DNA from: an uncultured Lachnospiraceae bacterium
GTDB taxonomy: Bacteria > Bacillota > Clostridia > Lachnospirales > Lachnospiraceae
Assembly (NCBI GenBank): GCA_900317475.1
Contig: ONGY01000002.1
Coordinates: 1 to 35,011 of the forward strand
Direction: 5' to 3'
Length of the DNA: 35,011 nucleotides
The position numbers and the translations under genes were made by a program. Position 1 is the first letter of the stretch. Each line of letters opens with the position of its first letter. Below are positions 20,059 to 28,683 of the stretch, one piece after another. The notes beneath the pieces were generated by a model, which was given only the letters and a program-made list of their open reading frames with translations, ran no database searches and had not been told where the DNA came from.

Positions 20059-20907
20059 TCAGGCCGCCAGTACAGCACGGATTCCGAAGAAGGCAAGCAC
20101 GATGATTCCGAGGATGATACGGTACCAGCCGAACACCTTGAAATCATGCTTTCTTACATAATTCATAAGAAAACGGATGATGAAAAGCGAGACAAGGAAG
20201 GCTGTCGCCATGCCGATGAGAAGAATTCCCCATTCCGACCCGGTGAGGCTTCCGTTGTATTTGACGAATTTCAAGACACTGGCGCCGGCCATGACCGGGA
20301 TAGCGAGGACAAATGTGAATTCTGCGGCAGCCGGTCTTGATATTCCGATGATGATGCCGCCGATGATCGTAGCTCCTGAGCGGGAAGTTCCGGGGAAAAT
20401 TGCGGCCACCATCTGGAAAAGACCGATGATCAGCGCCTGCAGCGGCGTGATGCTGCTCATCTTCGTGGTCGTCGGCGTGAGGCCCATGTTGTAATTCTCG
20501 ACCACAATGAAGAGAATACCGACAAGGATCAGCATGATGGCGACGACATACCAACTGTACAGATGTGCATCGATCCAGTCATCCGCAATCACCCCGACGA
20601 TACCGGCCGGAATGCAGGCGATGATGATGAGAATCCAGGTCCGCAGGACGCTTCTGCGAAAACTCACGTGCCGCGTCCCGTTCTGCATTGTGCGCATGCG
20701 GAATGGCCAGATTTTATTCCAGAAGAGCAGGATAACCGCAAGAATCGCGCCGAACTGAATGACGACGAGATACAAATTCCAGAACTCCTCGGACACATTC
20801 ATCGGCATGATTTCCTGCAGCAGAATCATATGCCCCGTCGAGCTGATCGGAAGCCACTCCGTGATGCCCTCAACAATACCGAAAACAATCGATTTCAGAA
20901 AGTCCAT
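20059..20907 (-). CDS. uppP: Undecaprenyl-diphosphatase UppP (BacA)
   Basis: Integral membrane phosphatase that recycles undecaprenyl pyrophosphate, the lipid carrier of cell-wall synthesis; also confers bacitracin resistance. The 282-residue protein has about eight hydrophobic helices. Both active-site motifs are intact: GIVEGITEWLPISSTGHMIL near the N-terminus and FPGTSRSGATIIGG in the middle. ATG 20907 is chosen over an in-frame GTG two codons upstream, as AAAGGAG lies six bases before it. That SD is the end of a 53-base repeat unit, so the gene is translated from repeat-derived sequence. It may be co-transcribed with the aminotransferase. Confidence 0.95.
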   Translation of the reverse strand: MDFLKSIVFGIVEGITEWLPISSTGHMILLQEIMPMNVSEEFWNLYLVVIQFGAILAVILLFWNKIWPFRMRTMQNGTRHVSFRRSVLRTWILIIIACIPAGIVGVIADDWIDAHLYSWYVVAIMLILVGILFIVVENYNMGLTPTTTKMSSITPLQALIIGLFQMVAAIFPGTSRSGATIIGGIIIGISRPAAAEFTFVLAIPVMAGASVLKFVKYNGSLTGSEWGILLIGMATAFLVSLFIIRFLMNYVRKHDFKVFGWYRIILGIIVLAFFGIRAVLAA

Positions 20908-20912
20908 AACCA

Positions 20913-21111
20913 CTCCTTTACGCGAAGCAAATCTGCAAATGCAGATTTGCTGATGCGATATCCGAGGCTGGACCTGTCCAGCCTCGAGTTTTACTGCCGA
21001 GCATCAGCGAAGGCAGTAAAACGCAGCTCCTTTACGCGAAGCAAATCTGAAGATGCAGATTTGCTGATGCGATATCCGACTTAATGGACGGGCTTTAGCC
21101 CGTCCATTAAG
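20913..21111 (-). repeat. Composite hairpin/direct-repeat element between aminotransferase and uppP
   Basis: Two 53-base direct repeats (20913-20965 and 21027-21079) differ at only two positions. Each contains an AGCAAATCTG/CAGATTTGCT hairpin, GATGCGATATCCGA on one side and the uppP-type SD complement CTCCTTTACGCG on the other. Between and beside them are perfect hairpins: CGAGGCTGGAC/GTCCAGCCTCG (20963-20986), GTTTTACTGCC/GGCAGTAAAAC (20988-21022) and a 14-bp stem at 21080-21111. The last holds the aminotransferase stop codon TAA. The loop at 20999-21011 contains GCATCAGC, complementary to GCTGATGC in each repeat, so a kissing or pseudoknot contact is possible. Confidence 0.85.
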
Positions 21112-22297
21112 CCGGGTACTCGCTCCTCACAAACTTCTCTATAACCGGCAGAGACCGCTTTACTTTATCCGTATCCAGGCAGTAGGCGACACGGAAATAG
21201 CCGGGTCCGCCAAAACTGTCGCCGGGCACGAAGACAAGGTCGTACTTCAGCGCCTTGCGGCAGAATGCATTTGCATCCTCCTCAAGCGCTTTCGGGAAGA
21301 TGTAGAAGGTGCCGCCGGGCCGCACGACAGTAAATCCGAGACGCACGAACGTGTCATACAGAAGGTTCATGTTCGTCTCATAGACGGAAAGATCGCTCGT
21401 GATGTCCACGCACTTTCCCATCGCCCTGCAGATCAGCGATGACGGGCAGTTGTGCCCGATCCCGCGGGAGATCTGCGCCATGACCGGCACGAGTCTGTCC
21501 GCCTTCTCGCAGCGCGGGTTCACGGCGACGTAGCCGATTCGCTCGCCCGGGATGGAAAGCGACTTGGAAAAACTGTAGCAGGTGAGCGTGTTGTCATAAA
21601 ACTTTGCCGTGTACGGCACCTTTTTGCCGTCAAAACTGATCTCGCGGTAGGGTTCATCCGAGATAATGAAAATGGAATGACCGTATTCCTTCTCCTTCGC
21701 ACGGCATACATCAAAGAGACGCTGCAGCGTTTCTTCCGAATAGACAGCTCCGGACGGATTATTCGGAGAATTAATGAGAATAGCCGCGACATCCGAAGTC
21801 AGATATTCATCCAGAACATCAAAATTTACCTGAAAATCCCGGAAGTTTGCGGGGACGACGCGGATTTTCGCGCCGGTGAACGTGATGTACGGATTGTATT
21901 CCGGGAAGTAAGGTGCAAAGACCAGAACCGTCTCGCCCGGCCGGACGACTGCACGCAGCGCATGTGCAATGGCTCCGGCCGCTCCGGACGTCGGGAAAAT
22001 ATGGTTTGCAGTGTAGTCCATGTCAAACCGGCGGTTCAGAGAATCGGCGACCTGCTGCTTTGCCTCCGGCAGACCATTGCTCGGGCTGTACCCGTGAAGG
22101 CTCACGGAATCCATCGTTTTAACAAGGTCAATAATTGTGTCGTCGAAGGATTGTGGGGTGGGAACAGATGGATTCCCAAGGCTGAAATCGTAGACATTCT
22201 CCGCCCCGATTTCCTTCGCGCGCGCCGTCGCATACTCAGAAAGTTCCCGGATGACTGATTTTTTCCCCAGCATGGAAATATATTCTTCGTTGATCAT
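21107..22297 (-). CDS. Pyridoxal-phosphate aminotransferase, class I/II
   Basis: Fold type I aminotransferase of 396 residues from the ATG at 22297. Landmarks are FSLGNPSVPTP near residue 38, SPNNPSG (N179), the PLP-contacting SDEPYRE (D214), the Schiff-base lysine K245 in SFSKSLSIPGERIGY, and the substrate-carboxylate arginine in YFRVAYCLD. The sequence resembles aspartate/aromatic aminotransferase-like enzymes of clostridia annotated as 'pyridoxal phosphate-dependent aminotransferase'; the exact substrate cannot be read from the sequence. The frame is open 46 codons further upstream, but that part covers the promoter. GGAAGGA precedes the ATG directly after a CCGC-5-GCGG hairpin (22309-22321). 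Confidence 0.9.
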   Translation of the reverse strand: MINEEYISMLGKKSVIRELSEYATARAKEIGAENVYDFSLGNPSVPTPQSFDDTIIDLVKTMDSVSLHGYSPSNGLPEAKQQVADSLNRRFDMDYTANHIFPTSGAAGAIAHALRAVVRPGETVLVFAPYFPEYNPYITFTGAKIRVVPANFRDFQVNFDVLDEYLTSDVAAILINSPNNPSGAVYSEETLQRLFDVCRAKEKEYGHSIFIISDEPYREISFDGKKVPYTAKFYDNTLTCYSFSKSLSIPGERIGYVAVNPRCEKADRLVPVMAQISRGIGHNCPSSLICRAMGKCVDITSDLSVYETNMNLLYDTFVRLGFTVVRPGGTFYIFPKALEEDANAFCRKALKYDLVFVPGDSFGGPGYFRVAYCLDTDKVKRSLPVIEKFVRSEYPA

Positions 22298-22399
22298 AGT
22301 TTCCTTCCCCGCATGAAGCGGATTCAGGCTGTCTGCCGCCAGTACTTTTTCGTCAATACCCGCAAAATAAAAAATACGAATGTCTCCGGCACCCGCCGA

Positions 22400-22460
22400 T
22401 ACGTATAGACGTATTATACAGCCGCGGGAGAACATTGAAAATTGTCAATGTCCCCGCAGC
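22400..22460 (-). promoter_or_regulatory. Promoter region of the aminotransferase gene
   Basis: A perfect -10 TATAAT lies at 22413-22418 on the minus strand, preceded by TG-type context; the -35 at 17 bases (TTTCAA) is weak. An ACATTG/CAATGT inverted repeat overlaps the -35 region and could be an operator or help explain a weak -35 through activator dependence. The gap continues to the GH130 stop at 22608 with a CCGCA/TGCGG hairpin and AAACCGGTTT but no clear GH130 terminator. Confidence 0.55.
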
Positions 22461-25041: not shown

Positions 25042-25090
25042 GGCAACCTCCCGTCCGGCTGCTCCCTGCAGCCATTTTTATACCCCCCTG

Positions 25091-26862: not shown

Positions 26863-26908
26863 CCGCGTTTTTGCGGCATCCCCCTGCTTTCGAAGGCATC
26901 TATGCCTG
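26863..26908 (-). other. Two hairpins between the DUF1667 gene and glpK
   Basis: GGCA-TAGA-TGCC spans the DUF1667 stop codon TAG (26900-26902), which lies in its loop region. CCGC-6-GCGG (26863-26876) then precedes the GGGGTATA used as SD by glpK. This repeats the stop-hairpin, second hairpin, SD layout seen elsewhere in the window. Confidence 0.5.
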
Positions 26909-27274
26909 CGCTTTTGCCACGTTCTTTGTCGCGACAACATCCACACCGGTTCCCGCCACGTCATGAACGATGACGTCTCCGATGGCGACAGGTGCCGAAA
27001 CTTCCATTTTGTTGATGGCCTTCACGCACTCAAACATCTTTCCCTTCGGAACATCGCCTTTTGTCTTGACAGAGACAACCGGAAGAGTGCCGCCCTTCAC
27101 GCGGACCGTTGTCGTCACGATTCTCGTCGGATTTGTAACTTCATTTGCAGCATATTTATATCCGTTCGGGCAGGAATTTCCCGTGATATCGGTCACTTTC
27201 CCGTCATCATCCTGTGTAACTGTGATCGCACACCCAATCGGGCAGCGGATGCAGGTAAGTTCTGTTTTCTTCAT
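26900..27274 (-). CDS. DUF1667 protein, probable third component of the anaerobic G3P dehydrogenase cluster
   Basis: The 124-residue protein begins MKKTELTCIRCPIGC and has further cysteine in GNSCPNGYKYA, giving CxxC-x3-C...C candidates for metal or Fe-S binding. The remaining part (RIVTTTVRVKGGTLPVVSVKTKGDVPK) is the conserved DUF1667 pattern. Genes of this family are usually linked to a GlpA-like dehydrogenase and an FAD/NAD oxidoreductase, and probably replace GlpC as the small electron-transfer partner (inference from context). The frame is open upstream through the double-hairpin element, but ATG 27274 with GAGGTATA is the plausible start. Confidence 0.88.
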   Translation of the reverse strand: MKKTELTCIRCPIGCAITVTQDDDGKVTDITGNSCPNGYKYAANEVTNPTRIVTTTVRVKGGTLPVVSVKTKGDVPKGKMFECVKAINKMEVSAPVAIGDVIVHDVAGTGVDVVATKNVAKAQA

Positions 27275-27290
27275 ACTTATACCTCGCTGA

Positions 27291-27354
27291 GGCAGCCGGT
27301 GCGGAGGCACCGATGCTGCCGTTTGAAAATGACATATCAGTGTCATTTTCAAAT
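27291..27354 (-). repeat. Double-hairpin intergenic element, copy B
   Basis: On the minus strand a 13-14-bp stem ATTTGAAAATGACA/TGTCATTTTCAAAC (27321-27354, six-base loop) contains the upstream stop TGA at 27349-27351. It is followed by GGCAGC-AT-CGGTGC-4-GCACCG-GCTGCC (27291-27320). The second hairpin core is identical to that of copy A at 14921-14948, and both begin with the same TTTGAAA at a stop codon. The distal stems differ but each remains self-complementary, so base pairing rather than sequence is kept. Confidence 0.8.
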
Positions 27355-28683
27355 ATCTTCATTCTTTCTCACGCGAATCGTGATGCTCTTAAGTCCGTCA
27401 AAACCAGTGAGATCGCTCTTCTTCAGGATCACCTGTTCCATCTCGCCTGGCGCGAGGATTTTCTTCTTCTGGCTTCGGAAGACGGTGTCGTTAAAATCGA
27501 TCTCGACCGATGCTCCCTTGAAGACGGCCCCCACGCGGAAGCGGATCCGCTGCAGGTCTTCCATATGTCCGATGCGAATGGACGAGGGAACCGTATAGCG
27601 GACACCGTCGGCTGCCGTCACCGGAATGACTGTGCCGTCCTCCTCGTTTTCTCCCTCGTGAAGGACGAAAGAAGCCGCTCGTTTTCCGGCCTCCGACGCT
27701 TCCTCCGAGACATAGTCGACAAGGTCATGGACATGCAGAACATTGCCGCAGGCAAAGACGCCCGGAACGGAAGTCTCCAGAGACTCGTTGACAACCGGTC
27801 CGTTCGTCACGCGGGAGAGTTCGACACCGAGCTGCGTGGAAAGTTCATTCTCCGGGATCAGTCCGCAGGAGAGCAGAAGTGTGTCGCACTCGTAGGTTTC
27901 CTCCGTCCCCGGTATCGGCCTTCGGTCCGGTCCGACCTCGGCGATGGTGACCGCTTCGACGCGTTCTTTTCCCTGGATGTCGATAACGGTATGCGAGAGT
28001 TTCAGCGGAATGCCGAAATCATCGAGGCACTGGACAATGTTCCGCTTGAGTCCGCCGGAATAGGGCATCAGCTCGGCGACAACCTCAACCTTCGCGCCTT
28101 CCAGCGTCATGCGGCGCGCCATGATGAGTCCGATATCGCCGGAACCGAGGATGACAACCTTTCTGCCCGGCATTTTGCCCTCGATATTGACGAAGCGCTG
28201 TGCTGTGCCGGCTGTGTAGATGCCGGCAGGACGGTAACCGGGAATATTCAGGGCTCCTCTCGGGCGCTCCCTGCATCCCATTGCAAGGATCACCGTATCC
28301 GCCTCGACGGTGAAGAATCCATCGGTCTTGTTCATGGCGGAGACAATCTTCTTCGGATTCTTCTCCCGTCCCGCTTCCCTCGCGGTTTTCCCGTCTTCGG
28401 TGCTGATATCGACGACGATCGTCGAGAGCAGGCAGGGAATATGACGCTCTTTCACCTTGTCCTCGAAACGCTGCGCGTATTCGGGGCCGGTCAGTTCCTC
28501 GCCGAATGTGTGCAGTCCGAAACCGTTGTGAATGCACTGATTGAGGATGCCGCCGAGAACATTGTCCCGCTCGATGACGAGGACATCCCCGGCATCGAGC
28601 CCGCTGTCCACTGCGCTCGATGCAGCAGCGAGCCCCGCGGGGCCGCCGCCGATAATCACTGTTTTATATGACTTGTCTGCCAT
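27349..28683 (-). CDS. FAD/NAD(P)-binding oxidoreductase (GlpB-like partner)
   Basis: Two-dinucleotide-binding-domain flavoprotein of 444 residues. The FAD-binding site is TVIIGGGPAGLAAASSAVDSG at the N-terminus, trimmed to IIGGGPAGLAAA. A second Rossmann motif VILGSGDIGLIMARR lies near residue 175 for NAD(P)H, and VFACGNVLHVHDLVDYV near 330 is the second FAD contact. A cysteine in LNQCIHNGFG follows the first domain. It sits between the GlpA-like dehydrogenase and the DUF1667 gene, a recurring three-gene set thought to pass electrons from G3P to NAD or quinone-free acceptors. This role is inferred from context. Confidence 0.88.
   Translation of the reverse strand: MADKSYKTVIIGGGPAGLAAASSAVDSGLDAGDVLVIERDNVLGGILNQCIHNGFGLHTFGEELTGPEYAQRFEDKVKERHIPCLLSTIVVDISTEDGKTAREAGREKNPKKIVSAMNKTDGFFTVEADTVILAMGCRERPRGALNIPGYRPAGIYTAGTAQRFVNIEGKMPGRKVVILGSGDIGLIMARRMTLEGAKVEVVAELMPYSGGLKRNIVQCLDDFGIPLKLSHTVIDIQGKERVEAVTIAEVGPDRRPIPGTEETYECDTLLLSCGLIPENELSTQLGVELSRVTNGPVVNESLETSVPGVFACGNVLHVHDLVDYVSEEASEAGKRAASFVLHEGENEEDGTVIPVTAADGVRYTVPSSIRIGHMEDLQRIRFRVGAVFKGASVEIDFNDTVFRSQKKKILAPGEMEQVILKKSDLTGFDGLKSITIRVRKNEDI

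Follow-up and report, generated by a model that had tools for sequence, protein, structure and literature searches.

The gap between a class I/II aminotransferase gene and uppP in the window, by which we mean the whole stretch of 35,011 nucleotides of Lachnospiraceae DNA analysed here, is a copy of a dispersed element with a partial tandem copy in front of it. The element belongs to a real family of structured interspersed elements that carry their own Shine-Dalgarno (SD) sequence and, in most of the clusters examined, stand immediately in front of a start codon, frequently downstream of what looks like a native SD; its anatomy, the covariation of its stems, its copy number, its phasing to start codons, the SD-like sequences in its 5' flanks and the polymorphism of its sites were all observed directly. 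We think it likely that these are small non-coding elements which have spread in Lachnospiraceae by coming to lie between the native SD with its spacer and the start codon, bringing an SD of their own, and the element is probably mobile. In the open PMC literature, as surveyed, we recognised no description of an interspersed repeat locked to the SD/start junction.

Both genes lie on the minus strand, and in their direction the gap runs from the aminotransferase end through a hairpin, a unit C, hairpin A, hairpin B and a second unit C to the SD and the ATG of uppP. The first hairpin (21081-21110, minus strand) has 14-bp arms, TTAATGGACGGGCT and AGCCCGTCCATTAA, around a 2-nt loop and contains the stop codon of the aminotransferase gene (21107-22435, minus strand, assigned by its Pfam domain), whose 3' end extends into the element. 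A repeat search found a 53-nt direct repeat with copies at 20913-20965 and 21027-21079, 96% identical with 2 differences, at a spacing of 114. The first copy in the direction of the genes, unit C' at 21027-21079 (minus strand), has an internal hairpin at 21040-21065 with 10-bp arms and ends in an SD-like AAAGGAG (21027-21033) with no gene behind it. It is followed by hairpin A' (20988-21022, minus strand; 11-bp arms GTTTTACTGCC and GGCAGTAAAAC, 13-nt loop with GCTGATGC), which in the copy on contig C107 has the arms GTTGTACTGCC and GGCAGTACAAC, by hairpin B' (20963-20986, minus strand; 11-bp arms CGAGGCTGGAC and GTCCAGCCTCG, 2-nt loop) and by the second copy of unit C' (20913-20965, minus strand; hairpin at 20926-20951 with 12-bp arms), the terminal AAAGGAG of which (20913-20919) is the SD of uppP, a BacA-family gene with a BacA/UppP Pfam domain (20062-20907, minus strand, start at 20907). 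A preliminary description of this DNA had reported two near-identical 53-base repeats with two differences, alternating with hairpins in the order hairpin, repeat, hairpin, hairpin, repeat, with the aminotransferase stop inside the first hairpin and the uppP SD as the last part of one repeat, the other having the same SD without a gene, and all of these points were borne out at exact positions. Absent from it were the fact that each 53-base unit is a hairpin in itself, terminating in AAAGGAG, and the position relative to SD and start codon, the most striking property of the family. The predicted folding energy of the window element is -117.4 kcal/mol, whereas 200 dinucleotide shuffles gave -69.6 (sd 4.75), which corresponds to z -10. 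A second member of the family lies at 27276-27357 (minus strand; covariance-model match of 26.4 bits, E 0.0002) and consists of hairpin A (27321-27357), hairpin B (27291-27320) and the SD tail TCAGCGAGGTATAAG (27276-27290), with hairpin C missing and the ATG of a DUF1667 gene (26903-27274, minus strand, by Pfam) directly behind it at 27274.

The family consensus comprises three hairpins, A-B-C, of about 100-110 nt, and then the element's own SD and a spacer. Their common forms are GTTTGAAAGTCCTGC TGAT GCAGGACTTTCAAAC for hairpin A, GCAGC AT CGGTGC TGAA GCACCG GCTGC for hairpin B and CGC ATTC GGCAAAACCGC ATCC GCGGATTTTGCC TCA GCG for hairpin C, which is the 53-base unit; behind hairpin C come AGGTATAAGT and the start codon. 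The copies in the window and on C107 form a diverged subfamily. By a simple rule, hairpins A and B are both found upstream in 59 of 140 units; tandem C-A-B-C arrays occur, as does A+B without C in the window, and the 20 pairs of neighbouring units are all on the same strand, 13 of them at a spacing of 109-111 nt. An alignment of 24 hand-chosen elements, one of which (L129) is cut short in A, had 97.7% of its cells paired and double changes in 19 of 40 pairs, values reached by 0 of 500 shuffles, the cells not being independent events since the copies are related. RNAalifold predicts the same three-hairpin structure, and 15 C units from the window's own genome, taken alone, were 96.2% paired with double changes in 5 pairs (0 of 500 shuffles). 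Double changes accounted for 70 cells of the 24-element alignment, four of them to U-G, and one-sided changes for 7, an excess that would also fit hairpins maintained at the DNA level. Other hairpins (for instance CGGGAGAAAGCCCATTCGGG..TTTCTCCCG and GGTGCCGCAAAA..GCGCGGCAC) terminate in the same GGGGTATAAG-type SD, alone or before A-B-C, as seen in L149 upstream of 1113, in L260, L263, L255, L257 and L261 and at 25078-25086 of the window (minus strand), and they are perhaps a second family with the same habit.

The preliminary description had left room for a unit unique to this locus and invariable among strains, and the data point the other way on both counts. Within the window's own genome (G000), blast found one further copy, 91% identical, before a GntR-family gene, and a pattern search found a third, before a gene that we take to be ABC-transporter-like, in which the stem GCAAATCTGC has become GCAAAACTGC with the matching change opposite and complementarity kept. 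A covariance model of the 53-base unit, R1, gave 87 rows at E≤1 in this genome, some of them the same palindrome on the other strand, and with R2, a model of 15 own-genome units, the number of matches was 80 at E≤1e-5. Several copies are found at the ends of contigs, and two contigs of this genome, C107 and C68, share an overlap of exactly 99 bases whose start falls within the last unit in front of the GntR gene, which indicates that the assembly breaks at these repeats and that 80 may be an undercount. Copy number among relatives is very unequal, R2 matching 12 of 62 genomes of the genus with 80, 37, 28, 27, 14, 13, 12, 6, 4, 2, 1 and 1 matches, and a comparison of two close genomes shows single sites at which the element is exactly present in one and absent from the other. 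By blastn with the 167-nt element, only the own genome was hit among 61 genus genomes; the family is visible to structure models and missed by blastn because its stems change. All of these genomes are drafts, and one contig of the own genome may be misbinned or transferred. The same element-bearing gene is 98.8% identical at L160 (G000, contig C61) and L265 (G030, contig C31), the UppP proteins of the two genomes being only 60% identical, which would be either horizontal transfer or a wrongly binned contig. A hairpin cluster at L041, similar-looking but spanning a run of masked N, was rejected as a family member.

Beyond the genus, a family-wide search matched 2 of 397 genomes (the own genome and G065), a weak negative since no more than 14 candidates per genome were scored. 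A model built on four G065 units, R3, then matched 10 of 35 genomes of a second genus, with tandem arrays and with 20 matches in G065 and 11 in G479. This version is diverged, with stems GAGAAACCGC / GCGGATTTCTC and outer CCA/TGG, and its full copies have the order, the hairpin A feet (GTTTGAAAG/CTTTCAAAC), the SD and the start-codon position seen in the window's genus. Two loci of the second genus (L341 and L349, both in G457) have units with ATCGCATCAG...CTTCGCG that, by eye, resemble the window subfamily more than they do the own genome's main family. Viral contigs (searched with one exact pattern), phages and plasmids gave no match.

To place the units relative to genes, we ran R2 over 115 loci, which represent the better-scoring matches from 13 genomes, and kept 140 of 141 matches (a partial antisense match in L196 was dropped), 121 of them being the last unit of a cluster. 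When frames had to span 80 codons or more (25 or more where the end of the locus truncates them), a start codon stood 0-3 bases behind the unit in 84 of the 121 clusters and exactly at +1 in 72, compared with 4.4% and 1.1% for random positions in the same loci. The phased clusters were 33 of 59 in the own genome and 51 of 62 in the other twelve together, three sites common to G006 and G059 being counted twice. Among the 37 clusters without a start codon at this place (26 of 59 in the own genome), 10 have no such frame starting anywhere from 12 bases before to 80 behind the unit end. Three own-genome copies have their ends at a reading frame or within one (L137:5119, L153 and L158), and a fourth, L168 around 1380-1562, lies in frame inside a longer reading frame, its own frame being open across all three hairpins. 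The L158 copy (1581-1641) ends inside the early part of a frame that is presumably TrpG-like, with no usual start codon in frame in the element's 3' end. Phasing recurred in the second genus, at 25 of 29 loci with frames of at least 60, four of which are also among the 121 clusters; a 30th locus, L353, was left out as its match was not at the assumed place, and the four misses are two inner tandem units and two units with one extra hairpin before the SD and ATG.

On the other side of the element, 39 of 61 non-tandem cases had a tetramer resembling an SD within the 16 nt before hairpin A, against a background of 17%; the start of hairpin A was set by a simple pattern that admits a few false starts. 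Many 5' flanks resemble a complete RBS plus spacer without an ATG (for example L184, L278, L185, L194 and L230). These flanks were no more like the tail of their own element than like other tails (P 0.28, 44 pairs), but they resembled tails more than random sequence did (6.7 against 5.1 matches), which argues for two independent SDs, one native and one borne by the element, and against a target-site duplication. Predicted exposure of the element's SD was only slightly raised, 0.376 against 0.320 with shuffled upstream sequence (higher in 48 of 77; Wilcoxon P 0.002).

Polymorphism of single sites was followed in G006 and G059, two close genomes that have three element sites in common at 96-99.7% protein identity and differ at others. 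Ten pairs of filled and empty sites were compared, of which six were readable (L253, L257, L259, L261, L263 and L274); at L192, L262 and L276 the alignment beside the element was too poor. L193 is a site common to both genomes, since the G006 contig starts within the element. Beyond these ten pairs, L256 and L277 lacked a counterpart in the second genome, L260 offered too short a stretch, and a match in G059 was limited to the final 68 bases of L255. At the clearest site, before a gene that we take to be ArgC-like, the flanks are near-identical and the difference is exactly 99 nt, with TCAGCGGGGTAGAG at both ends: the empty site reads ...TCAGCGGGGTAGAG and then GAATG, and the filled one ...TCAGCGGGGTAGAG, the element from GTTTGAAAG to CCTCAGCGGGGTAGAG, and then GAATG. 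Deletion between the 14-nt repeats could also account for this difference, so that the change may have gone in either direction. At L253 (before an Era-like gene), L257, L259, L261 and L263 the element is bordered on one side by the upstream gene or by an SD-like sequence and on the other by the ATG, and the empty site has an SD-like sequence of its own. For the window's junction, uppP was matched in 51 of 62 genus genomes and 30 loci were fetched, and the element was present in the own genome alone (0 of the 29 others). In G065 of the second genus, one copy occupies the junction that is filled in the window, with what is by eye an aminotransferase-like end on one side and, on the other, a uppP homologue (46% identity); this copy is probably an independent insertion, since the junction is filled there while 29 genomes of the window's genus lack the element.

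Taken as an interspersed element with its own RBS, the family would usually insert between the native SD with its spacer and the start codon, in the direction of the gene. The native SD would then lie ~100 nt upstream and the element's SD would replace it at the normal distance from the start codon, so that translation could still start, and tandem C-A-B-C arrays would come from further insertion or duplication at the same junction. We infer that the spread is by active transposition, through an enzyme acting in trans on the hairpins or through recombination via the SD-like ends, and that the element's SD keeps translation going. The search for a mobilising gene, which covered the Y1 family (PF01797), found none. 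A more far-reaching reading, which we put forward tentatively and consider rather doubtful, would make the family a class of small mobile elements, new in kind, whose target is the RBS/start-codon junction and whose guide is the SD itself or mRNA and ribosome, not an ordinary DNA site. Such an element would put its own structured RBS in place of that of the host, and insertion in front of an essential gene would thereby be tolerated. Bearing on this are the covarying versions carried by each genus and the aminotransferase/uppP junction filled in two genera.

The strong structure with covariation, situated in most cases just upstream of a start codon, would also suit a cis-regulatory leader (a riboswitch, thermosensor or protein-binding leader) controlling a regulon, yet we judge this unlikely. 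Pfam searches with 20 proteins (the window's uppP, aminotransferase and DUF1667 products, those of 16 further downstream genes and that of the GntR gene) gave BacA, an Era-like GTPase with a KH domain, IPP transferase, aldehyde dehydrogenase, OMP decarboxylase, DAP epimerase, the acetolactate synthase small subunit, ribulose-phosphate epimerase, Rrf2, LysR, ROK, MatE, acetate kinase and others, and 111 downstream proteins included few mutual relatives, so these unrelated genes do not look, from their sequences, like a regulon; a cell-envelope regulon (uppP, GntR, ABC transporter) had been entertained and was dropped once the other downstream genes were seen. Against a leader also speaks that the site is not kept at orthologues, as the 29 other uppP loci illustrate. 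Rfam scans of the window element, C107, C116, four further genus loci and one second-genus locus gave no family at gathering score for the element, the best hit below threshold being to Thr_leader, on L150 in the opposite strand (33.8 of 55 bits, E 0.0037), and the window having only a tRNA at gathering score. A switch masking the SD through CCUC:GAGG pairing was unsupported, with a mean probability of 0.072 over 61 leaders and values >0.5 in 3, and the predominance of double over one-sided changes is unusual for a constraint on RNA only.

The same scarcity of one-sided changes is expected of DNA hairpins and brings in an element of REP/BIME type or of IS200/IS605 descent that a Y1 (RAYT) transposase would move as single-stranded DNA; palindromes with conserved foot and loop, many copies and direct tandem arrays would fit such an origin. 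Y1 genes are present in 44 of 62 genus genomes, the own genome having two partial matches and G005 four, but the element-rich G030, G006, G050 and G049 have 0 PF01797 matches (in drafts, where absence is not proof), while the 4.3-Mb genome G061 has 38 Y1 matches and only one element match. Within 300 nt there were 0 opposite-strand unit pairs and 20 on the same strand, and no GTAG-type head was seen in the consensus, so that we regard this origin, too, as improbable. That the window merely holds a local duplication of terminator-like or mRNA-stabilising hairpins, as its two adjacent and 96% identical units might suggest, is hardly credible and was rejected on the R1 and R2 matches across the own genome and the genus, where dozens of copies have the same module order and the same SD position.

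The usual view is that small interspersed repeats persist by avoiding genes, and the present family does the opposite: it is placed where disturbance of translation should be greatest and appears to be tolerated, apparently because it carries an SD at the right distance. As an element with its own RBS, the family would amount to an experiment of nature, with the RBS exchanged at dozens of genes in each genome. It would make related gut bacteria differ in expression and would lend itself to the study of how an element can recognise a translation start, and the structure models offer a direct way to further lineages.

Among known repeats, the preliminary description had likened the sequence to BOX-type modular elements of unfamiliar sequence. 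The modular, dispersed composite was confirmed, and the tie to BOX holds by analogy only. As described in the part of the literature drawn on here, BOX elements of Streptococcus pneumoniae consist of short modules in fixed order and variable number, have about 100 copies, are predicted to form stem-loops when transcribed, have terminal inverted repeats and cause target-site duplications (PMC3049150). The present element is likewise assembled from short modules whose order is fixed and whose number varies, and it has a similar number of copies and predicted stem-loops, an analogy of architecture and not a homology of sequence; it differs in being phased to start codons and carrying an SD, a position that this part of the BOX description does not give (PMC3049150). 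Its consensus ends, GTTTGAAAG... and ...GCGAGGTATAAG, are by eye not inverse complements, and the comparison of flanks and tails gave no support for a target-site duplication, although one that is old and worn may be present. It is BOX-like in architecture and, by the features tested against the published description, not a BOX member. With REP/BIME sequences and their RAYTs, as far as the cited account goes, it shares dispersed palindromes, composite arrays and lineage-specific sequences, and it differs in the single orientation of neighbouring units, in the four element-rich genomes with no Y1 match and in its placement at translation starts (PMC2817692). Rickettsia palindromic elements (RPEs), in the portion of their description cited, reside inside coding sequences (PMC10969869); the present element resembles them in being palindromic, with its own frame open, and in being able to lie in frame in a gene (L168, perhaps L153), and it departs from them in that most of its copies (84 of 121) stand before start codons, L168 being the one clear in-frame case (PMC10969869).
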